Shown: positions 218-11,448 of the stretch, one piece after another
How positions within the stretch are numbered: position 1 is the first letter of the stretch
How the letters are laid out: each line of letters opens with the position of its first letter
From: Pseudomonadota bacterium
GTDB lineage: Bacteria; Pseudomonadota; Gammaproteobacteria; Burkholderiales; JAKAFK01
NCBI GenBank assembly: GCA_021817985.1
Contig: JAKAFK010000029.1
Location: 1-40,502, forward strand
Direction: 5' to 3'
Length of the DNA: 40,502 bases
Made by a program: the position numbers and the translations under genes
The notes under the pieces: model-generated
The model's database searches: none
Told to the model about the DNA's origin: nothing
The model's input: only the letters and a program-made list of their open reading frames with translations

Positions 218-2059
218 CTAGGGTGCCTCGCCGCCGCCCAACAAGCCTTCCGCCATGCCGGCAACGGCCGTCAGCCGGGCAAACGCCTCATGGAGGCGGG
301 CCTGTTCCTGCGAGAGCGTTTCGGGCGCGAGCGGCGGACTGAAATAGAAGCCTTGCGCCTCGTGGGCGCCGCGTGCGCGCAGGAATTCGAGCTGCTCCCC
401 TCGCTCCACGCCTTCGGCGACGACCTTGAGCCTTAAGGTACGCGCCAGGGCGATGATCGCCTCCAGGATCGCCGCGTCCTCGCGCCGGTCCACCGCATCG
501 GCAATGAACGACTTGTCGATCTTCAGCCGATCCGCCGGAAAATGGCGCAGGTAGCCCAGCGACGAATAGCCCATCCCGAAGTCGTCGATCGCGATGCCCA
601 CCCCCAGTGCCTTGAACGCGCGCAGCACGGCGATCGAGTCCTCGGTATCCTGCATGATGGCGCTTTCCGTGATCTCAATCTCGATGCGCTGCGGATCCAC
701 CGCCGCTTCCTCGATCGCGCGCCTCACGACGCTCACGACATCGGGCTGCCTCACCTGCAAGGCGGACAGGTTGACCGCCATCCGCAGCCCGGTCATGCCT
801 GATGCGTCGAAAGCCTTCAGCTGCCGGCACGCGCCCGCCAGCAGGCGGGTACCCAAAGCGGAAATCAGCCCGGCATCCTCCGCGAGCGCGATGAAACGCT
901 CGGGCGGCACCAGCCCGAAAACCGGGTGCTTCCAGCGGGCGAGCGCTTCGACCCCGCCCATCGTCCCCGTGGCGATGTCCATGATGGGGTGGTAGTGGAG
1001 CACAAGGGCATCGCTGTCGATGGCGCCGCGCAGATCGTTGGTCAACAAGAACCGCTCGCGCAGGTCGCTTTGCAGGCGCTGCGCATAGAAGGCGTGCCGA
1101 TTGCGCCCCTGCGCCTTGGCCTCGAACATGGCGAGTTCCGCATTCTTGAGGAGATCCTGCGGGGTGGCGCCATCTTCCGGGTAGCGGCTGATCCCGATCG
1201 AGCCCGAGAGCACAAGGGAAGCCTCCTGCACGGCGAAGGGCGGCATCAGGTCGCGCGCGACGCGTGCCGCGGCATGCGCGAGCGTCGCGTCATCCGGATC
1301 GGCCTCGATGAGCAGCGTGAATTCGTCGTCCCCCACGCGCGCCAGCACGTCCTCGTCGGGCGCCCTGGCGCGCAGCCGGGCCGCCACCTGCCTGAGCAGC
1401 GCGTCGCCGGCCTCGAAGCCCAGGGTGTCGTTGACCGCCTTGAAGTGATCCAGATCGAGGAACAGCACGCCCAGCCGCTGCCCGCGCGCCGCCGCCCGGT
1501 CGAGCGCCAGCGCGAGCCGCTCGAACAAATGCTTGCGATTGGGCAGCGCGGTCAGCTCGTCGTGGTGCGCCGCGAAGGAGAGTCTTTTGCGGAATTCATT
1601 GGCGCAATCGGAAAATACGGCGATGTAGTGGGTCGGCTGGCCGCTCCTGTCGCGGGCGAGACTGACGCTCACCTGCTCGCGGGCGGTCTCCCCGTTCTTC
1701 CGCCGGATGAGCAGTTCGCCCCGCCAGCATCCGTTGCGGGCGAGCGCCTCCCGCAACGCCCCGTAGGCGGACGCCTCCGTTGCGGCCAGGTTAAGCGTCC
1801 GAAGCGGCTTTCCGAGGACATCGCGCGCCCCATACCCGGTTCGCCGCGCAAAGGCGCCATTGACCGCGGTCACATGCCCATGGGTATCCGCGATGAGGAT
1901 GCCTTCGGCGGCATAGTCGATACCGGCGCCAGGGCCGGGCACGTCCGTCTCGGGGATGAACATGTTCTGACGGGGATATGCCGGAACCGGGCACGGCGCG
2001 CGCCGACGCGAGCCGCGCCCGCTGCCGCGCGGGGCAGCGCCGCGATCGCTGGAGGACAT
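218..2059 (-). CDS. PAS-GGDEF-EAL signalling protein (probable c-di-GMP phosphodiesterase)
   Basis: A 613-residue cytoplasmic protein with no membrane segment. A PAS domain (about 48-150) is followed by a GGDEF domain (about 160-325) and an EAL domain (about 340-590). The GGDEF signature is degenerate: residues 243-247 read GDDEF, and no RxxD inhibitory site precedes it, so cyclase activity is doubtful. The EAL domain keeps EAL (371-373), the EITES stretch, IDDFG, KIDKSFI and AEGVE, so it probably hydrolyses c-di-GMP. The usual YQPI near the domain start reads YHPI. The ATG at 2059 is preceded by GGAG at suitable spacing; an internal Met33 is the alternative start. It stands alone and points away from the TnpB remnant. 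The sensory input to PAS is unknown. Confidence 0.9.
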   Translation of the reverse strand: MSSSDRGAAPRGSGRGSRRRAPCPVPAYPRQNMFIPETDVPGPGAGIDYAAEGILIADTHGHVTAVNGAFARRTGYGARDVLGKPLRTLNLAATEASAYGALREALARNGCWRGELLIRRKNGETAREQVSVSLARDRSGQPTHYIAVFSDCANEFRKRLSFAAHHDELTALPNRKHLFERLALALDRAAARGQRLGVLFLDLDHFKAVNDTLGFEAGDALLRQVAARLRARAPDEDVLARVGDDEFTLLIEADPDDATLAHAAARVARDLMPPFAVQEASLVLSGSIGISRYPEDGATPQDLLKNAELAMFEAKAQGRNRHAFYAQRLQSDLRERFLLTNDLRGAIDSDALVLHYHPIMDIATGTMGGVEALARWKHPVFGLVPPERFIALAEDAGLISALGTRLLAGACRQLKAFDASGMTGLRMAVNLSALQVRQPDVVSVVRRAIEEAAVDPQRIEIEITESAIMQDTEDSIAVLRAFKALGVGIAIDDFGMGYSSLGYLRHFPADRLKIDKSFIADAVDRREDAAILEAIIALARTLRLKVVAEGVERGEQLEFLRARGAHEAQGFYFSPPLAPETLSQEQARLHEAFARLTAVAGMAEGLLGGGEAP

Positions 2060-2946: not shown

Positions 2947-3405
2947 TTACCTGCTCAATCGCGAATCGAATTCGAAGGGGCGAATGATACGGATCGTAAC
3001 GCTGTCAAACGCTGAATGGTGTGGGTTGAGCACGACATTTGAGGCTTCAGGCATGATGGCAGAGGGCGCGACAAGCCCAAGTTGGGTGGATGCAAGCAAG
3101 AATTTATCTCCAATCGAGATTGCTGCAGTCGAGCTGGGGAGCGCATCCCAGCCAACTGGCAAGTCAGCCACTGCGAGACGACGATAAAGTCGTTCATCGT
3201 CTGGCAAATCAAAGACGGACAGCACCAGATCCCGCGGGAGAATGTCCGAAGCGTGGACAAGTTTTTCCAGGGCCGCAATCTCTGGAGTCATGCCGGCGTA
3301 TATGGCGGCAATGCCTGATGAGTTCCAGCGCCCACCAGTCAGTCGCGCTCCAGTCCCCTGTCGGTCAAGCGCATAGCTGCGCTTGGCAATCCTCCATGCC
3401 TGCAT
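2947..3405 (-). CDS. RES-domain toxin (NAD+-degrading type)
   Basis: A 152-residue protein spanning one RES domain. The hallmark GGRWNSSG (Arg26), the following AIYAG (Tyr36), PEIAALE (Glu42/Glu47) and the late NPHHSAF stretch with its Ser are all present. Family members act as toxins that phosphorolyse or degrade NAD+ when freed from their Xre-type antitoxin. The start ATG at 3405 overlaps the antitoxin stop by one base (TAATG), the classic antitoxin-toxin arrangement, so translation is probably coupled. Length is typical and no key residue appears lost, so the pair looks intact. Confidence 0.9.
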   Translation of the reverse strand: MQAWRIAKRSYALDRQGTGARLTGGRWNSSGIAAIYAGMTPEIAALEKLVHASDILPRDLVLSVFDLPDDERLYRRLAVADLPVGWDALPSSTAAISIGDKFLLASTQLGLVAPSAIMPEASNVVLNPHHSAFDSVTIRIIRPFEFDSRLSR

Positions 3406-3836
3406 TAAACAGCGCCACCATAGGCAATCGCGGACAATATCTTGCGGACTTCACCTGCGCCTGTCTCGGTGTCCAGCATGGACAATGGGGTATCTCCAAG
3501 TGAGGCGTTCATCCTGGTCAACCAATCACGAGCCATGTCGGATGTTCCGAAGACCTTCTCGGCCTCATCCTCGATCAGTGCAATGCGGCCCAATCGCTCA
3601 GTCTCGGTTTGTCCCAACGGAAGTCCGGATTTGATCTTGCGTTCCGCGGTCGCCGGAGAGATCCCGATCAATTTTGCAAAAAGAGTGCGTGGCATTCCAA
3701 AGTGCTCGCTGGCAGTAACCAGGATGGAAGGGGATGCGCCAGAGCGAACAATCTGAATTCTGATTCCAGGATTGGCCGTAGCCAATGCTGCTTTCCACTT
3801 GCCGAAACTCTCTGTACGCTTTATGGTCGCTGTCAT
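3405..3836 (-). CDS. Xre/MbcA/ParS-type antitoxin of the RES toxin
   Basis: A 143-residue protein when started at ATG 3836. An upstream in-frame ATG at 3869 would add 11 residues but lies inside the operator palindrome and has no ribosome site, whereas 3836 is preceded by GGGG. The middle (about 48-80) is a helix-turn-helix (FAKLIGISPATAERKI) and the C-terminal half carries the toxin-binding segment (AEKVFGTSDMARDWL, followed by NASLGDTPLSMLDTETGAGEV). Its partner is the RES toxin directly downstream. It should neutralise the toxin and repress its own promoter. Confidence 0.9.
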   Translation of the reverse strand: MTATIKRTESFGKWKAALATANPGIRIQIVRSGASPSILVTASEHFGMPRTLFAKLIGISPATAERKIKSGLPLGQTETERLGRIALIEDEAEKVFGTSDMARDWLTRMNASLGDTPLSMLDTETGAGEVRKILSAIAYGGAV

Positions 3837-3850
3837 AAGAACCCCATCTA

Positions 3851-3880
3851 TCATTTGATAGTTTATCATACATCAAATGA
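3851..3880 (-). promoter_or_regulatory. Palindromic operator of the RES/Xre operon
   Basis: A perfect 9-base inverted repeat, TCATTTGAT (3851-3859) and ATCAAATGA (3872-3880), encloses a second one, TGATA/TATCA (3856-3860 and 3864-3868). It sits 15-45 bases upstream of the chosen antitoxin start in an AT-rich patch, exactly where the antitoxin would bind to autorepress. The sequence is seen directly; the binding role is inferred. Confidence 0.7.
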
Positions 3881-4486
3881 GCGATAATATTTTGTATAAG
3901 GTGTTTATGACCACATAGCGGAGCGATTACTTGTTCTTTGGGTTGGCTCCAACCGCAGATTGCAAATAGCCAAAATTTCCTGCATCAGGCGATGCAGTCG
4001 GCCGGTCAGCCAGTTTAGCGCCATCGCCACGGAAGCATTGGCGTTGAAGAACCGGGTGAGCGGTACCGGTTCCCGCAAGATAAGGATCACACCGCGAGCA
4101 GTTCACGAAACCATGCTCCACGAGGACGAGGAAGACCAAGGCGACGAGGCGTCAAGCCGAGGCTGTTCGAGTGCCACGAATTGTCGCCCCGCAGATCGTC
4201 TGCCCAGCGGTATGACAAGAGGCTATGCCCACTTTCCGTCTGTTCGCCACTCGGACCCCGAGGACAAGACCGGCCTGGTCCGGGGCGCGCGGACGCGACG
4301 GGAACGCCGCGGCGAATCTCACGAACAAGGCCACGCGTTCCACGGCCGCGGCCTGCGGAGAAAAAGGCTCGGGCTCAGGTCACAAGCCCCGGGCGAACCC
4401 TGCCTCGACGAAGCAGAAGCCTTGTTCCCATGAGCAGGAAGGCACGTCTGACGGAACGGCTCCGCCGACATGACGGCACAGGGGTC
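3881..4486. other. Intergenic region, no firm gene
   Basis: About 600 bases between two toxin-antitoxin loci. A short minus-strand frame (3905-4090) reads LTRFFNANASVAMALNWLTG and RLHRLMQEILAICNLRLEPT. It looks protein-like and could be the tail of a transposase, but I cannot name the family and it lacks a good start. Nothing else is recognisable. Confidence 0.4.
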
Positions 4487-4903
4487 CTATGGCAGGACAA
4501 CGCCTTGCGCGAGCGCCCACCTTGACAGCAGATCGAGCAATCCCTCGGCAGAGCCGATGGCGTCAGCCGCATCGTCGCGGTCATAGACATCGTCCGCGCT
4601 CGCGCCTTCGGGAAGCGCGTCCGGATAACGGGTGCCCACATAGTAACGATCAAGCCGCTCCGCCCTGCGGATCACCTCGTTGCGCTCAGGAAGCTCTTTC
4701 GCAAGGCGCACGATGGCATGTGTCTTGGGTAAGGTGCCCCGGGCCACCAACAAGCCCTTGATCGCCTTTTCCGCACATTGCTGCGCATGGAAGCAAGTCA
4801 GCGCGAAGTGGCCGCTCGACTGGAGCACCTTGGCGGCCGACAAGTCGCTTCGCGCCGCCGCGAACCATCTCGCCGCATCCTCAAGCTGGGCTTCGATGCT
4901 CAT
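4487..4903 (-). CDS. HEPN-domain protein paired with an MNT nucleotidyltransferase
   Basis: A 138-residue HEPN protein (the AARSDLSAAKVL...CFHAQQCAEKAIKGLL...TYPxT/LPKTHAI...RYPDA layout typical of PF05168-type HEPN). The same frame is open upstream to 5248, but that part is the out-of-frame shadow of the neighbour; the ATG at 4903 begins the HEPN fold. It overlaps the end of the nucleotidyltransferase gene by 23 bases, so the two are translated together. I do not see a clear R-x4-6-H ribonuclease motif like that of HepT proteins elsewhere in the window, so RNase activity is uncertain. Confidence 0.85.
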   Translation of the reverse strand: MSIEAQLEDAARWFAAARSDLSAAKVLQSSGHFALTCFHAQQCAEKAIKGLLVARGTLPKTHAIVRLAKELPERNEVIRRAERLDRYYVGTRYPDALPEGASADDVYDRDDAADAIGSAEGLLDLLSRWALAQGVVLP

Positions 4904-5264
4904 AGAGAAGCTCCTTGGCCGCCCACACCTCGCGAAAGAAGGGATTCCCGGATGCGATCTTGCGGGCGATCTCCTCAGACGAAAGCGGCACCACGTCGCA
5001 ACCGTGGGACGGCTCGGCATCGACCACGGCGTCGTAGGCGATGCGCAGCCGCGCCTTGAAAGGAAGAGCGGCAAGACGACCACCGACCTCCACCAGCAGA
5101 TCGACGTCGGAATCCTCCGAGGGCATCCCCCGCGCCACCGATCCGAACAGCCATATGCGCCGGGCATCCAGGGCGCCGGCCAGACGAGGCACAAGGACCC
5201 TGAGCACTTCCGCCCGCATGCGGGTGGCTTGCGCACGCGCTGCCTCAATCAGCGGTTCCGCCAT
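4881..5264 (-). CDS. MNT-type nucleotidyltransferase, partner of the HEPN protein
   Basis: A 127-residue minimal nucleotidyltransferase. The G-S-x10-D-x-D active site is intact (LFGSVARGMPSEDSDVDLLV), with a third acidic residue in HGCDVVPL. MNT proteins paired with HEPN proteins act as antitoxins, in characterised cases by transferring AMP to a tyrosine of the HEPN toxin. The gene precedes and overlaps the HEPN gene. It is divergent from the diguanylate cyclase operon. Confidence 0.88.
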   Translation of the reverse strand: MAEPLIEAARAQATRMRAEVLRVLVPRLAGALDARRIWLFGSVARGMPSEDSDVDLLVEVGGRLAALPFKARLRIAYDAVVDAEPSHGCDVVPLSSEEIARKIASGNPFFREVWAAKELLYEHRSPA

Positions 5265-5555: not shown

Positions 5556-5558
5556 TTG
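5543..5558 (+). promoter_or_regulatory. Strong ribosome binding site deciding a TTG start
   Basis: GGAGGAGG (5543-5550) lies five bases before TTG at 5556. No ATG is suitably placed, so this site fixes the start of the diguanylate cyclase on a TTG codon. Confidence 0.8.
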
Positions 5559-6554
5559 GCTACGGTGGAGCTCCTGAAGCAAAACCTCACGATCGAGCCG
5601 GATCTGCAAAACTTCCTCGGATTCGTCCTGCAATCCGCCAAGGCGCTCGGCGCGAACGCATTCGCGGCAACGCCGCCGACGCTGGACACCGCGCGCCGGC
5701 TTCGCAGCGCCCGCGGCCAAATCCATCAACCCCTCCCCGTCCGCCTGATGCTCAACGAGGATCGGCTGCGCGTCGAATGGCAGGATCAGGCTGCCGACAT
5801 CGTGCGCCTTCATGCGCCGCCCGCGCCCCGGGTGGTCGACGAACTGCGGCAGCATCTTGCGCACTCCACCGAGTACGTCGACCCCTCCCTGCTTCAGCAG
5901 CGCAATGCCGAAATGGCGCGCTACATGGAGGAGACCCGAGCCCGCACGGAAGCGGAGCTGGAAGCGCTGCAGCAGGCCCTCGAGAAGCGCCAGGTGGAGC
6001 TGCGCGAATCGCTTCGCCGCGCGGAAACGGACGCCCTGACGGGACTGCTGAACCGTCGCGCCTTCGATGACCGTGTGGAGTGCGCCTTCAACCGTACCCA
6101 GCGCCAGAAGGACGAATCCCTTTGCCTCGCCCTGTTCGATCTCGATCACTTCAAGGAGATCAACGACGAATTCGGGCACCAGGCAGGGGACGCGTATCTG
6201 CGCAAGATGGCCGACGCGATGCGCTCGGTGATCCGGCGCGACGTCGATTATGCATTCCGCTTCGGTGGCGACGAGTTCGCGATGCTGATCTTCGCCGGCG
6301 CGGATATCGCCGTCGAGAAGACGAAAGAGGTCCTTGCGGCGATGGATAACCGCGTGAGCATCGGGCTTGCCTCGCTCTCAGGTAGGGAACCTGCCGATTC
6401 CAGCCTGGAGGCCTTCATCCAGCGCGCCGACGAGGCGCTGTACAAGGCCAAGGCCTCGGGGCGCGGGCGCATCGTGCTGGCCGTGCGCGATCCCAAGGGA
6501 GTGATCCACTCGGAGACGTTCCTGCCCTCGGGACTGGAGGACGTGACGGCATGA
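5556..6554 (+). CDS. Diguanylate cyclase (GGDEF), first gene of a partner-switching operon
   Basis: A 332-residue soluble protein beginning at TTG. Residues 1-110 are an unrecognised domain, 112-158 a probable coiled coil (ARTEAELEALQQALEKRQVE), and 160-320 a GGDEF domain. The catalytic GGDEF (237-241) is intact, and RDVD (228-231), five residues before it, is a proper inhibitory RxxD site. It should therefore make c-di-GMP with product feedback. Its stop overlaps the next start (ATGA), placing it in one operon with an RsbT/RsbX fusion and two STAS proteins, so the N-terminal domain or coiled coil is a candidate target of the partner switch. Confidence 0.92.
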   Translation: MATVELLKQNLTIEPDLQNFLGFVLQSAKALGANAFAATPPTLDTARRLRSARGQIHQPLPVRLMLNEDRLRVEWQDQAADIVRLHAPPAPRVVDELRQHLAHSTEYVDPSLLQQRNAEMARYMEETRARTEAELEALQQALEKRQVELRESLRRAETDALTGLLNRRAFDDRVECAFNRTQRQKDESLCLALFDLDHFKEINDEFGHQAGDAYLRKMADAMRSVIRRDVDYAFRFGGDEFAMLIFAGADIAVEKTKEVLAAMDNRVSIGLASLSGREPADSSLEAFIQRADEALYKAKASGRGRIVLAVRDPKGVIHSETFLPSGLEDVTA

Positions 6555-7600
6555 CCGAAGTGGACAGCCACGATGCCTGCCGCCTCCTGTACAACAGCCT
6601 CATACAGGACGAGAGCGACGGCGTCCTCTTGCGCGCGCGGGTGCAGGCCGCGGCGCGCCGGCTCGAGTTTACCGAGACCGATCGAGAAAACATGACGCTC
6701 GCCGCCGCGGAGATGGCCAGCAATCAGCTCAAGCATGCGCACCGCCGCGGTCTGGTGCAAGTCTGGCAGCAGCCCGGGCGGACCCTCGACCTGGTCGCGC
6801 TGGATTTCGGCGGCGGCATCGATGATCCGGCGCAGGCGACGCAGGACGGCTTCTCGACCGCGCACACGCTGGGCAAGGGGCTGGGGAGCATCGCACGGCT
6901 GTCGCACGAGTGGGGCCTTTACACGCAGCCGCTCGCACCGGGCTCGCCGCGCTGGCATGGCACGCTGGTATGGTCGCGCTTTCGCGCGCTCCACGCCGCG
7001 AAGGAGCCGGCCGGGCAACCGCGCGTCCGGGTGGGCCTGTTCTCGCGCTCACTCGCGGACGACCGCTATAACGGGGATCGCGTCTACCTCAGAATCGACG
7101 GGCAACGCATGGCCTGGATCCATCTCGACGGGCTCGGGCACGGCCTGGAGGCGCAGGAAACCACCGACGGGCTGGCCTCGGCCGTGGCCCTCGGGGTCGA
7201 TCCGCGGCGCCTGCTGCGGCAACTCGATCAGACGCTGGCCTCGCGCCGGGGTGCGGTGGGCGTTGCGGTCGCCATCGATCTCCGGAGCCGCAGCGCCTGC
7301 CTGGCGGGCGTCGGGGACATGTCCGCCCAGATTCAAAGCGACGAGACCTTTTCCAGCCTCGGTTTCGCGCCCGGGATCCTCGGCAAGGAACATGAGGACC
7401 CTGTCGCCACCGACATCGTGTGTCGACGCCAGTGCACCATCATCACCGCCAGCGACGGGATTCGGAATCGGTCCGTAGCCGGTGAATTCCCCGGCCTTGT
7501 GCATCAGCACCCGCAACTGGTCGCCTACCTGCTCGGCAATGTCATGGGGCGCGCGACGGACGACCAATCGGTGTGCGTGGCCTCGGCGCATGCGCCATGA
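6551..7600 (+). CDS. RsbT-like kinase fused to RsbX/SpoIIE-like phosphatase
   Basis: A 349-residue two-domain protein. Residues 1-145 are a GHKL ATPase of the RsbT/anti-sigma type, with the N box E54-x3-N58-x3-H62 (EMASNQLKHA), DFGGG (85-89) and GKGLGSIARLS (109-117). Residues 155-349 are a PP2C-like domain of the RsbX/SpoIIE kind, with LDGLGHG (192-198), GVGDM (253-257), ASDGIRNR (Asp302) and TDDQS near the end. In Rsb systems RsbT phosphorylates STAS proteins and RsbX removes the phosphate; here both jobs sit on one chain. It overlaps the cyclase stop by four bases and is followed by the likely substrates. Confidence 0.88.
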   Translation: MTEVDSHDACRLLYNSLIQDESDGVLLRARVQAAARRLEFTETDRENMTLAAAEMASNQLKHAHRRGLVQVWQQPGRTLDLVALDFGGGIDDPAQATQDGFSTAHTLGKGLGSIARLSHEWGLYTQPLAPGSPRWHGTLVWSRFRALHAAKEPAGQPRVRVGLFSRSLADDRYNGDRVYLRIDGQRMAWIHLDGLGHGLEAQETTDGLASAVALGVDPRRLLRQLDQTLASRRGAVGVAVAIDLRSRSACLAGVGDMSAQIQSDETFSSLGFAPGILGKEHEDPVATDIVCRRQCTIITASDGIRNRSVAGEFPGLVHQHPQLVAYLLGNVMGRATDDQSVCVASAHAP

Positions 7601-7696
7601 GGGGCGGACGCGGCAGCAGCAGGCCTTCAGGACCCGGCGGCGCCGTGGGGCGCGGCCGTTGGCATCAGCAATTGTCGTAACGAAAGGACGGGAAGC

Positions 7697-8563
7697 ATGC
7701 GCAATGCAATGTCGAAGACCCGACGCACCTTGCTCGAGCAGACGAAACTTCAGATCGGGAGAATGTCCGCCCTGATCGAGGCGCGCGCGCGCGATGTCTT
7801 CGGCGCGAATCAGATGATGAGCGCCGACGAGATCTCGGATTTCAGCGTCGAATTTCTTGAGCTGATGGTGGCGCTCTTCAAGACCGACGACCCGCTCGCT
7901 CACCATACGGCCGAGTTCAAGGCCTTGCAGGGCTTCTTCGGCAACGTCGCCAAGCAGATTCTCTTGCGCGGCGGCCAGATGACCGATTTTCTGCGCTACG
8001 CGCAGTTTCTGCAGAAGATCTTCATCGAGGCGCTCGAAGGCGACGAGAGCATCGACGGCGACGGCGTGCGCGCCATCCTCCTGCTCTTGTCCAACGTGTT
8101 CAACGAACTGTCGCTCGTCGTCTTCGAGTCCTACCTGGAGGAGAAGGAGCGCACGATCTACGCCCAGCAGGAAGAGCTGCGCGAGACGGCCACGCCCATC
8201 ACCGAAATCTGGGACGGCGTGCTCACGCTCCCGATCATCGGAACGCTGGACTCGAGCCGGACCATGCTGATCATGGAGGCCCTCTTGAACCGCATCGCCG
8301 CCGATCGTGCGCGTGCCGTCGTCATGGACGTCACCGGCGTGCGGGCCATCGATTCCCAGGTCTCCCACCATCTCATCCAGATGGTGCGCGCCGTGCAGCT
8401 GATGGGCACCGACGCCATCCTGACCGGGATTCGTCCGGAAATCGCGCGGGCGCTGACCAACCTGAACATCGATCTGGGCAACGTCACCACGCGCGCGAGC
8501 CTGTCCGACGGGCTCAAGGAAGCTTTCCGGCGCATGGAGATCCATGTCTCGACGCCGCATTGA
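7697..8563 (+). CDS. RsbR-like STAS protein (stressosome scaffold type)
   Basis: A 288-residue protein. The helical N-terminal half (about 15-155) resembles RsbRD-type sensor domains; the C-terminal half (165-280) is a STAS domain (TPITEIWDGVLTLPIIGTLD, DVTGVRAIDS, ILTGIRPEIAR). The residue equivalent to Bacillus RsbR Thr171 is Ser220, still phosphorylatable, but the equivalent of Thr205 is Ala252. A good ribosome site (GGACGGGAAG) precedes ATG 7697. It begins 96 bases after the kinase/phosphatase gene and is probably in the same transcript. Likely role: bind the small STAS protein and the kinase in a signalling complex. Confidence 0.87.
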   Translation: MRNAMSKTRRTLLEQTKLQIGRMSALIEARARDVFGANQMMSADEISDFSVEFLELMVALFKTDDPLAHHTAEFKALQGFFGNVAKQILLRGGQMTDFLRYAQFLQKIFIEALEGDESIDGDGVRAILLLLSNVFNELSLVVFESYLEEKERTIYAQQEELRETATPITEIWDGVLTLPIIGTLDSSRTMLIMEALLNRIAADRARAVVMDVTGVRAIDSQVSHHLIQMVRAVQLMGTDAILTGIRPEIARALTNLNIDLGNVTTRASLSDGLKEAFRRMEIHVSTPH

Positions 8564-8581
8564 TCCCGGAACCGAGTCGAC

Positions 8582-8932
8582 ATGCTCCAAGACGCCAGCG
8601 CGCCGGGCTTCCATCTGACCCCGATCGGCCACGGCCAGATTCTCCTCGAGCCCTCGCCGAGCCTGGATGTCGGCGATCCCGGCAATCTCGTCGTCGCCAT
8701 ACTCGATCGGCTGCAAGGCTTGCGGGCGGCCACGCTGTTCTATGACCTGGCCGGCCTAGCACTCATCGACGAGGCGTATTGCCGGTGGCTCGAGGGCCTC
8801 GCGAACGCCTGCCGCGCCATCGGGGTGCGCATGGTATGCGTGCGCATGCAGCCCACAGCCGCCTTTGGGCTTGCCCAGACGCAGCCCCGGATGCCGGCGT
8901 TCGCCACGGCACTCGACGTGGGACTCGACTGA
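8582..8932 (+). CDS. RsbS-like single STAS protein with Glu at the phosphosite
   Basis: A 116-residue STAS-like protein ending the operon, 18 bases after the RsbR-like gene. The core reads FYDLAGLALIDEAYCRWL, then ACRAIGVRMVCVRMQPTAA. In RsbS the equivalent of IDE is I-D-S, whose Ser is phosphorylated by RsbT; here it is Glu64, which cannot be phosphorylated and carries a permanent negative charge. The STAS assignment comes from pattern, length and position, and the sequence is divergent. It may be locked in the state that normally releases the kinase, or it may have a different role. Confidence 0.72.
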   Translation: MLQDASAPGFHLTPIGHGQILLEPSPSLDVGDPGNLVVAILDRLQGLRAATLFYDLAGLALIDEAYCRWLEGLANACRAIGVRMVCVRMQPTAAFGLAQTQPRMPAFATALDVGLD

Positions 8933-9245: not shown

Positions 9246-9725
9246 TCATGACGGCGCGCGAGCCACCAACCCCATTGCCTCCAGGCGCTGCCGCCAGCTG
9301 CAGTAGAGTCCGGCCAGCGCCCGGGCCGCCGTGATCGCCCCCATCAGTGCCGCGAAGCGCAGCTCCGGATGGTCGGGATACTCATGGGTCAGGCGGTTTC
9401 GGGCCTCGCGCCACGCAAGCCACTGGCGCGCATCGAGGATCCCGAGCTTCTCCAGACGGTTGAGGCGTTCGCGCATGGCCCAGTCCTCATAAGGCTCGTT
9501 CAATGCAGCCAGTGTGGCCGGCACCAGGCGTTCGCCCAGGACGTCCTGCAGCTTGGTGAAGCGAAAAATTAGCTGATCGGTCAGCCTGACACGCTGGCGG
9601 TCCGCTTCCAGCGTCGCGAGATCGGGGGCAGGTGCCTGATGCCATTCGGCCAGAGCTTCGCCAAGCGTACTCGCGTGGCGGTTCGCTTCCCAGATGGCGC
9701 TGGCCAGCCTGTCGCCGGGCGTCAT
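9246..9725 (-). CDS. hepT: HepT-type toxin (HEPN ribonuclease)
   Basis: A 159-residue all-helical HEPN protein. The R-x4-H-x-Y catalytic and modification motif is intact in ARNRLTHEYPD; the Tyr after the His is the residue AMPylated by MntA in characterised pairs. The segment LIFRFTKLQDVLGERLVPA is typical of this family. Start ATG 9725 overlaps the mntA stop by four bases (ATGA). It should be an RNase toxin held in check by the upstream nucleotidyltransferase. It is a clear relative of the orphan at 20778-21239. Confidence 0.9.
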   Translation of the reverse strand: MTPGDRLASAIWEANRHASTLGEALAEWHQAPAPDLATLEADRQRVRLTDQLIFRFTKLQDVLGERLVPATLAALNEPYEDWAMRERLNRLEKLGILDARQWLAWREARNRLTHEYPDHPELRFAALMGAITAARALAGLYCSWRQRLEAMGLVARAPS

Positions 9726-10045
9726 GTGCGTCCCAGCAGGGCGCCGGTGCGCCGTGCATGCATGACCACCGGCCGGTCGTCATCGGTGCCCTTGGCCGTG
9801 ATGACGACATCGATCGGTTGCTCTTCGAGGGCGTAGTATATCGACGCGACAAAGCGGGTCCGCCTCGCGACAAGGTCCGCCGCACTCAAGGGGCGGGGCG
9901 CTTCGACCAACAGGTCGATGTCGCCTCCGCGCCTGGCGTCATCGACGCGGGACCCGAACAAGAAGACTGCGGTTCCGGGCTCGAACGCATCATGTGCGGC
10001 GCGAACGATCGCCGCCCGCTCCTTCTCGGTCAGTCTCATTCCCAT
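9722..10045 (-). CDS. mntA: MntA-type antitoxin nucleotidyltransferase
   Basis: A 107-residue minimal nucleotidyltransferase. The active site G-S-x10-D-x-D is present in LFGSRVDDARRGGDIDLLVE, and PIDVVIT supplies the third acidic residue. Two close in-frame ATGs exist (10045 and 10039); the latter has GGGGAATGG at better spacing, so the true length may be 105. The frame continues upstream to 10267 without resemblance to the family, so that part was left out. The pair MntA-HepT overlaps by ATGA and appears complete. Confidence 0.88.
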   Translation of the reverse strand: MGMRLTEKERAAIVRAAHDAFEPGTAVFLFGSRVDDARRGGDIDLLVEAPRPLSAADLVARRTRFVASIYYALEEQPIDVVITAKGTDDDRPVVMHARRTGALLGRT

Positions 10046-10416
10046 TCCCCGGAATTCCCGCAATAACGCCGCCACCAACGCCAAGCCCTTGAGAAGCCCT
10101 GCGCGGGGCGCGTTTCGCTGCCACAGGCGCCCCAACACGCCGTTGCAGCCCATTATAGCGCAGCATGCAACGGCGACGGGAGTCCACAAGCCAGGGTTTT
10201 GGGGAAGGGCGGCGCTCAGGCCTATAGACCGCCGCACGCGGTGTGGTACACCCCGTCGCTGGGGCACTCAAGAGTCCTGGTTCTCGGAAGGAGGAAGAAA
10301 CCCGCTGGGGAGCCCCGGCTGCGCGTCAAAGGGGCGTGGTTTCTGAAAGCCTTCCGCGAAGAAACCCGGCGAGGACCCCGGCCCCCGTTGTCGGGAGGCT
10401 ACTGGGCGCGCCGCCC
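10046..10416. other. Intergenic region with weak repeats
   Basis: No gene was recognised. GAAGAAACCC occurs twice (10294-10303 and 10358-10367), each followed by a similar CCCCGG-ending stretch, suggesting a degenerate direct repeat of about 65 bases. Confidence 0.4.
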
Positions 10417-10526: not shown

Positions 10527-10811
10527 TTACTTGGCGGAGTATGCCGCGCACCAGCCGTTCGGGCTGATCGCGCCGTCGACGAGCTTGCACTTGCCGGCGG
10601 CCTTGGCGGACGCACCGGGGATGAACTGGATGCAGTTCGAGCAGTGCTGGCCGTTCTTGGGCTTATCCTGATACTGCATGGCGGCCTTGGGCACGCCGGC
10701 ATAGGCGGAGCGGCTCAGCGCGCCGGTGGCGGCGACCACGCCGATGGAGGCCAGCATGGCGCTGCCCTTGAGGAATGTCCGCCGGGAGATTTTTTCGTCC
10801 TTGATGCTCAT
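10527..10811 (-). CDS. High-potential iron-sulfur protein (HiPIP), Tat-exported
   Basis: A 94-residue protein. A twin-arginine signal (SRRTFLKG, cleavage near AYA-G at about 38) is followed by a HiPIP domain with the four cluster cysteines in CSNC (58, 61), CKL and WCAAYS. HiPIPs carry one 4Fe-4S cluster in the periplasm and shuttle single electrons, for example between iron-oxidising cytochromes or bc1 and terminal oxidase. The start is supported by AGGAG before ATG 10811. A paralogue lies upstream on the same strand, and a Cyc2-like cytochrome-porin is nearby, suggesting a shared electron-transfer chain. Confidence 0.92.
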   Translation of the reverse strand: MSIKDEKISRRTFLKGSAMLASIGVVAATGALSRSAYAGVPKAAMQYQDKPKNGQHCSNCIQFIPGASAKAAGKCKLVDGAISPNGWCAAYSAK

Positions 10812-11154: not shown

Positions 11155-11448
11155 CTAGCCCTTCCCCCAGCTTTGGGAGTAGGCGACGCAATAGCTGTGA
11201 GGGCTGATGGCGCCCGTGCCGACCCGGCAGGTGCCGGCGGCGGCTCGAGGCCCCGAGATGAACTGGGCGCAGTTGGTGCACGCCTTCCCGTCGACAGGGG
11301 TAGCCTGGTAATGCAGCGCCGCCTTCGACAGTCTGGCCGGCGCGTGCTTCATGCCCGTCCCGGCGAGCGCGGCTGCCGCCGTGGCCACGAGCGTCACGGC
11401 CTTCGACAGAAACGCCCGTCTGGGGGTTTTTTCAGGATCTGGGCGCAT
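11155..11448 (-). CDS. High-potential iron-sulfur protein (HiPIP), second copy
   Basis: A 97-residue protein with a Tat signal (PRRAFLSKAV) and a HiPIP domain with CTNC, TCRV and YCVAYS cysteines. It shares the KAALHYQ...GKACTNCAQFI layout with the neighbour at 10527-10811 (KAAMQYQ...GQHCSNCIQFI), so the two are paralogues. They differ in the loop before the third Cys. The 343-base gap to the next HiPIP suggests separate promoters. Function is periplasmic electron transfer; which partner each serves cannot be told from sequence. Confidence 0.9.
   Translation of the reverse strand: MRPDPEKTPRRAFLSKAVTLVATAAAALAGTGMKHAPARLSKAALHYQATPVDGKACTNCAQFISGPRAAAGTCRVGTGAISPHSYCVAYSQSWGKG

Follow-up and report, generated by a model that had tools for sequence, protein, structure and literature searches.

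The 40,502-nucleotide window analysed here (the whole stretch of DNA, contig JAKAFK010000029.1 of assembly GCA_021817985.1, from a Pseudomonadota bacterium of the Burkholderiales, lineage JAKAFK01; the assembly has 184 contigs and is 96% complete) carries a module of four strictly linked genes. They encode a diguanylate cyclase, a single chain combining an ATPase/kinase domain with a PP2C phosphatase domain, an RsbR-like protein and an RsbS-like STAS protein. The expected catalytic and substrate residues are conserved in these proteins, the phosphorylatable serine of RsbS has been lost and the stand-alone kinase RsbT is absent. We propose, with middling confidence and by analogy with characterized systems, that the operon is an RsbT-less partner switch controlling its dedicated diguanylate cyclase through a phosphorylation-dependent STAS complex.

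A four-gene module of invariant order

Open reading frame (ORF) calling confirmed four intact genes (Table 1), and their coordinates bear out the initial annotation, made from the DNA letters without database searches, which had described four adjacent genes of which the first two overlap as ATGA. The cyclase gene begins with a TTG codon downstream of a strong ribosome-binding site (GGAGGAGG). The claim of a cyclase-first order without a sigma factor was upheld, as no sigma factor was detected in the neighbouring genes that were scanned. A promoter and terminator scan returned no sigma-70 site, and terminators occurred at chance level.

Table 1 Features of the cyclase-led module in the window
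Feature	Coordinates	Strand	Basis or remark
Diguanylate cyclase, 332 amino acids	5556..6554	+	Pfam GGDEF; catalytic residues invariant in relatives
Cyclase N-terminal domain	5556..5885	+	Distribution searches; without Pfam match or profile match to module domains
ATPase/kinase and PP2C phosphatase chain, 349 amino acids	6551..7600	+	Pfam, solved relatives, trees
RsbR-like protein, 288 amino acids, globin-like N-terminal domain and STAS	7697..8563	+	Pfam, predicted fold
RsbR-like Ser186 codon	8252..8254	+	Aligns with first RsbR phosphosite (Thr175 of Listeria RsbR)
RsbR-like Ser220 codon	8354..8356	+	Aligns with second RsbR phosphosite
RsbS-like STAS protein, 116 amino acids, phospho-acceptor Ser replaced	8582..8932	+	Pfam, solved relatives, alignment
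RsbS-like Glu64 codon	8771..8773	+	Aligns with the phosphorylated Ser of RsbS and with the Moorella S58E mutant

Conservation of the gene order in relatives had been set beforehand as a test, and the order cyclase, ATPase-phosphatase, RsbR-like, RsbS-like was kept on one strand in 39 of 39 complete loci, comprising the window and 38 relatives from many families of one class at two taxonomic levels (L011 and L059 are the same contig). Partial loci stop at contig edges, and the gene order there is consistent with that of the complete loci. All four genes are under purifying selection relative to the sister genome, with ratios of nonsynonymous to synonymous substitution (dN/dS) of about 0.03-0.23 over whole genes. 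Chance is therefore excluded as the source of the arrangement, since the order is retained across the 39 complete loci and the genes are under purifying selection.

The N-terminal domain of the cyclase, used as a query, gave strong matches in 28 of the 399 genomes of the order and in 14 more genomes elsewhere in the class; a further search of 398 phylum-wide genomes yielded two matches, both already counted in the order. Throughout the genomes examined this domain was seen solely together with the module. A profile of the RsbS-like protein selected the same genomes of the order with three exceptions, two of which (L078 and L079) lie at contig edges and the third of which (L077, genome G062) is a decayed remnant. 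At about 3200-4400 of that remnant, large internal deletions join the start of the cyclase gene to the end of the RsbS-like gene, as though the module had disappeared in one piece. There is no fifth conserved gene: once shadow reading frames of the module genes were set aside, no other family occurred in more than 9 of the 34 loci examined for neighbours. A plasmid search matched the common HATPase-PP2C family alone and recovered no close relative. In three loci the reading frames themselves carry in-frame insertions, of about 15 residues and similar to each other in the RsbS-like genes of L075 (2851-3255) and L081 (1699-2103), and of about 28 residues in the cyclase gene of L076 (4970-6079); these are possibly copies of a small mobile repeat tolerated within reading frames.

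The cyclase comprises an N-terminal domain (residues 1-110), a long helical stalk (110-157) and a GGDEF domain (156-304; Pfam E 2e-33). Both motifs attributed to it by the initial annotation are present in the window, and they differ in standing. The GGDEF motif is intact and, with the flanking catalytic residues, invariant or nearly so in relatives; the RxxD motif (RDVD, R228-D231) is a local feature of the window cyclase that most relatives do not share, having the Arg one residue earlier. Residues 1-110 matched no Pfam family, and at sequence level no RsbU_N match was listed at E values up to 10 for the window cyclase or for eight N-terminal domains. The strand pattern of this region had raised the idea of a degenerate ATPase, which was rejected at sequence level, since comparison of the domain with HATPase, STAS, PP2C and RsbR N-terminal profiles revealed no similarity to any of them.

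An ATPase-phosphatase chain without RsbT and an RsbS without its phosphosite

The second gene encodes a HATPase_c_2 domain (E 1e-8, approximately residues 27-120) followed by a PP2C/SpoIIE stretch that is sub-threshold in Pfam (E 2e-4, approximately 158-344) and whose nearest matches among solved structures are 3zt9 from Moorella and the RsbX structure 3w40. The ATPase residues E54, N58, D85/G87/G89 and G108-G112 and the PP2C residues D176, D193, D302 and D337/D338, the aspartates being metal-binding, are all present and are invariant or nearly so in relatives. This is the layout of an ATP-binding SpoIIE-family phosphatase, HATPase then PP2C on one chain, and full-length relatives are so annotated in Paraburkholderia, Streptomyces and others.

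Ordinary RsbR-RsbS-RsbT-RsbX (R-S-T-X) modules in other genomes of the same order allowed the origin of this chain to be addressed. The X component of these modules is a lone PP2C protein in L082 and L086 and a HATPase-PP2C chain in L019, L083, L084 and L085. The window fusion can be aligned over its full length to most of the latter chains, with E values down to 1e-47, and matches RsbT more weakly, at about 1e-11 to 1e-17. ATPase-domain trees place the stand-alone RsbT proteins in a group that excludes the module fusions (support 100/99 and 100/100), and a tree forcing the fusions together with RsbT was rejected by the approximately unbiased (AU) test (p 0.034 and 0.039). Neither the module nor the window's own assembly yielded a stand-alone RsbT, and RsbT was absent from 19 of the 21 module genomes searched, while it was found in all four control genomes with ordinary modules. 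The remaining two module genomes encode stand-alone RsbT elsewhere, G424 twice (G424:C8:127816-128594) and G480 once (C1:1848052-1848432), and because they carry it alongside the module, the two kinds of system can coexist. The fusion is thus probably the counterpart of the HATPase-RsbX chain of ordinary rsbRSTX systems and not RsbT joined to RsbX. The simplest account of these alignments and trees is that the module descends from an R-S-T-(HATPase-X) ancestor by loss of RsbT, rather than from a fusion of RsbT to RsbX.

The third gene product has a STAS domain (Pfam E 3e-14) and was modelled from four sequences at a mean predicted local distance difference test (pLDDT) score of 65. The model matched full-length Listeria RsbR with a Z score of 16.1 over 261 residues, and its N-terminal half matched both the N-terminal domain of Moorella RsbR (3zta; Z 13.6, root-mean-square deviation 2.4) and B. 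subtilis RsbR (2bnl). This predicted fold places the protein among RsbR proteins with a globin-like sensor. The first phosphosite is Ser in all module copies, and the second is Ser or Thr in all.

The fourth gene product gave a weak, sub-threshold STAS match (Pfam E 0.002), its best solved relatives are RsbS chains, and among PDB sequences it is closest to S58E, an engineered phosphomimic form of the Moorella protein. The position corresponding to the RsbS phosphosite is Glu in the window, and Ser never occurs there among about 42 module copies, which instead have Pro, Glu, Asp, Gln, Thr, Arg, Leu, Gly, Ala, Asn or Lys. The ordinary RsbS of the same order retains Ser in six of six cases, as does B. 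subtilis RsbS. Despite loss of the phosphosite the protein conserves the motifs YYDL, ID.YY.WL and MQPTAAFAL, and its dN/dS of 0.06-0.12 relative to the sister genome indicates purifying selection.

These results support the initial annotation's RsbR-like label for the third protein, through the match to the RsbR fold and the retention of both phosphosites, and divide two of its other assignments. Kinase and phosphatase do share one chain, with both domains present, yet the identification of that chain as RsbT plus RsbX is not supported, since the ATPase groups with HATPase-RsbX and RsbT is missing. Similarly, the RsbS-like protein is a relative of RsbS by its closest structures, but the label of a working RsbS is not supported, its phosphosite being gone.

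A proposed route from the switch to the cyclase

We hypothesize that the HATPase-PP2C chain adds phosphate to Ser186 and Ser220 of the RsbR-like protein and removes it again, in response to an input signal that would be read by the globin-like N-terminal domain of the latter. The RsbS-like protein, which is not phosphorylatable at the usual site, would serve as a fixed partner in an RsbR/RsbS complex, and the phosphorylation state of this STAS complex would decide whether the N-terminal domain and stalk of the cyclase are held in the dimer that makes the biofilm messenger cyclic di-GMP (c-di-GMP), analogous to the action of SiaC on SiaD. Both enzymatic reactions, the cyclase contact and the sign of its effect are inferred from the anatomy of the proteins. 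Direct control of the cyclase is the most economical reading because the gene order is invariant in 39 loci and the cyclase N-terminal domain is specific to the module, and it has precedents in other systems. Since both RsbT and a detectable RsbU-type domain are missing, a route through the STAS proteins is favoured.

Several observations weigh against this proposal. The cyclase N-terminal domain was predicted from four sequences at a pLDDT of only about 40, so that its fold and binding surface are of low confidence. Thr occupies the RsbS phosphosite in four RsbS-like copies, which are possibly still phosphorylatable. The branches that separate the ATPase from RsbT are long and the AU test is only moderate. 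It could also be the kinase half that partners the cyclase, like MtT in Moorella.

The last of these points leads to a Moorella-type mechanism, in which the ATPase half of the fusion would be kept bound by the RsbR/RsbS complex until a signal prompts it to phosphorylate RsbR; once released, it would bind the N-terminal region of the cyclase and set the activity of the enzyme. The closest solved relatives of the phosphatase domain, the RsbR N-terminal domain and the RsbS-like protein are indeed all from Moorella (3zt9, 3zta and 3zxn). However, the Moorella cyclase MtG has an RsbU-type N-terminal domain (PMC12143880), whereas the window cyclase shows none by sequence; the ATPase is not RsbT by tree, and its permanent tie to the phosphatase makes simple release less natural. 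We regard this mechanism as rather unlikely, and the binding of a freed RsbT-like kinase to the cyclase, suggested by the initial annotation, is weakened by the lack of RsbT and of any detectable RsbU_N. Somewhat less probable still is that the cyclase has the RsbS-like protein as its sole partner, which, no longer subject to phosphorylation, would have turned into a dedicated adaptor or inhibitor whose availability is set by the RsbR-like protein. Its distinctive surface, kept under purifying selection without the phosphosite, and its co-occurrence with the cyclase N-terminal domain would fit such a role, but its conservation is equally explained by binding to the RsbR-like protein. We consider it improbable that the genes share expression only, with the switch having a different output and the cyclase being regulated independently. 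The cyclase's own N-terminal domain could be a sensor, but linkage, order and strand are invariant in 39 loci over many families, the cyclase and fusion genes overlap in the window, no other conserved neighbour is available as an output and one genome appears to have lost the four genes together.

Beyond the proposed STAS-complex switch, a more far-reaching and doubtful evolutionary scenario may be considered. The module would be derived from a stressosome in which RsbT was lost and RsbS became permanently non-phosphorylatable, the scaffold having become a dedicated cyclase adaptor that binds the new N-terminal domain, with RsbR alone carrying the phosphate signal.

Genomic setting and relation to known systems

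In the window the module is flanked by toxin-antitoxin-like pairs on the minus strand, of the RES/Xre type (2947-3869), the HEPN/nucleotidyltransferase type (4487-5264) and a nucleotidyltransferase with a 159-residue partner lacking a Pfam match (9246-10267). In the sister genome (L013) the surroundings of the module showed no relatives of these pairs. A PAS-GGDEF-EAL protein (218-2059, minus strand) is divergent from the module and directly adjoins the cyclase gene in the sister; for this reason the two upstream pairs were apparently inserted in the window strain, or else lost from the sister. Further downstream, two similar small proteins (10527-10811 and 11155-11448, minus strand) have twin-arginine-like signals and cysteine patterns like those of high-potential iron-sulfur proteins.

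Most of what is known about the stressosomes of Gram-negative bacteria comes from gene neighbourhoods, and few of their outputs are proven. The module described here packs sensor, kinase, phosphatase and output enzyme into four genes of invariant order and removes the RsbT step on which most models depend, providing a compact system for asking whether a STAS complex controls a cyclase directly. It also raises the question of what role RsbS has after its phosphosite is lost, and the N-terminal domain of the cyclase, which belongs to no Pfam family, serves as a marker for the module in genomes. In the literature searched, which left most subscription journals outside, we found no description of this exact module, nor of its lack of RsbT, its unphosphorylatable RsbS-like protein, its cyclase-first order or its dedicated N-terminal domain.

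Partner switches that control cyclases are already known, namely SiaABCD, HsbA-HsbD, BgrR and Moorella MtG, and modules resembling stressosomes are known, or have been proposed, to control c-di-GMP. Like the module, the Gram-negative rsbRSTX systems (Heinz et al. 2022, PMC9237108) are minimal stressosomes without sigma-B, and c-di-GMP enzymes are among several outputs proposed for them. They consist of RsbR (a globin-coupled sensor), RsbS, RsbT and RsbX with the output downstream, whereas in the module the cyclase comes first, RsbT is missing and RsbS is altered. Of the features of a stressosome, RsbR with two phosphosites and an RsbX-type PP2C are present and a phosphorylatable RsbS and stand-alone RsbT are not. 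In Moorella thermoacetica, RsbR, RsbS and RsbX relatives are likewise linked to a diguanylate cyclase (MtR-MtS-MtT-MtX and MtG), and the RsbT-like kinase MtT acts on MtG (Quin et al. 2012, as cited in PMC12143880, PMC7647112 and PMC4976288). The Moorella system has the kinase MtT, its RsbS receives phosphate at Ser58 and its cyclase bears an RsbU-type domain. By contrast, neither RsbT nor the RsbS serine is present in the window module, its cyclase shows no RsbU-type domain, and the gene orders differ.

HsbR-HsbA-HsbD of P. aeruginosa offers a STAS-type antagonist that binds a cyclase depending on phosphorylation, as proposed here, phosphorylated HsbA binding HsbD; unlike the module, it involves an HptB/HsbR phosphorelay, the anti-sigma factor FlgM and a single antagonist that retains its Ser (PMC5085249). 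BgrR/BgrU/BgrV/BgrW of Sinorhizobium meliloti, in which a phosphatase/kinase couple acts through a substrate on a cyclase, resembles the module by its description in PMC7647112. SiaABCD of P. aeruginosa also comprises four genes, for a phosphatase, a kinase, a STAS-like substrate and a cyclase (PMC8457831, PMC7647112). It is not orthologous to the module, having a separate kinase and phosphatase, a SiaC-family substrate and one STAS-like protein instead of two; a SiaD model scored 118.5 bits on the window cyclase against a cut-off of 290, with the GGDEF portion alone matched, and none of the four module proteins matched the SiaC family. SiaD nevertheless shares with the module cyclase the arrangement of N-terminal domain, stalk and GGDEF domain, and SiaC binds the stalk of SiaD, activating it unless SiaC is phosphorylated (PMC8457831).

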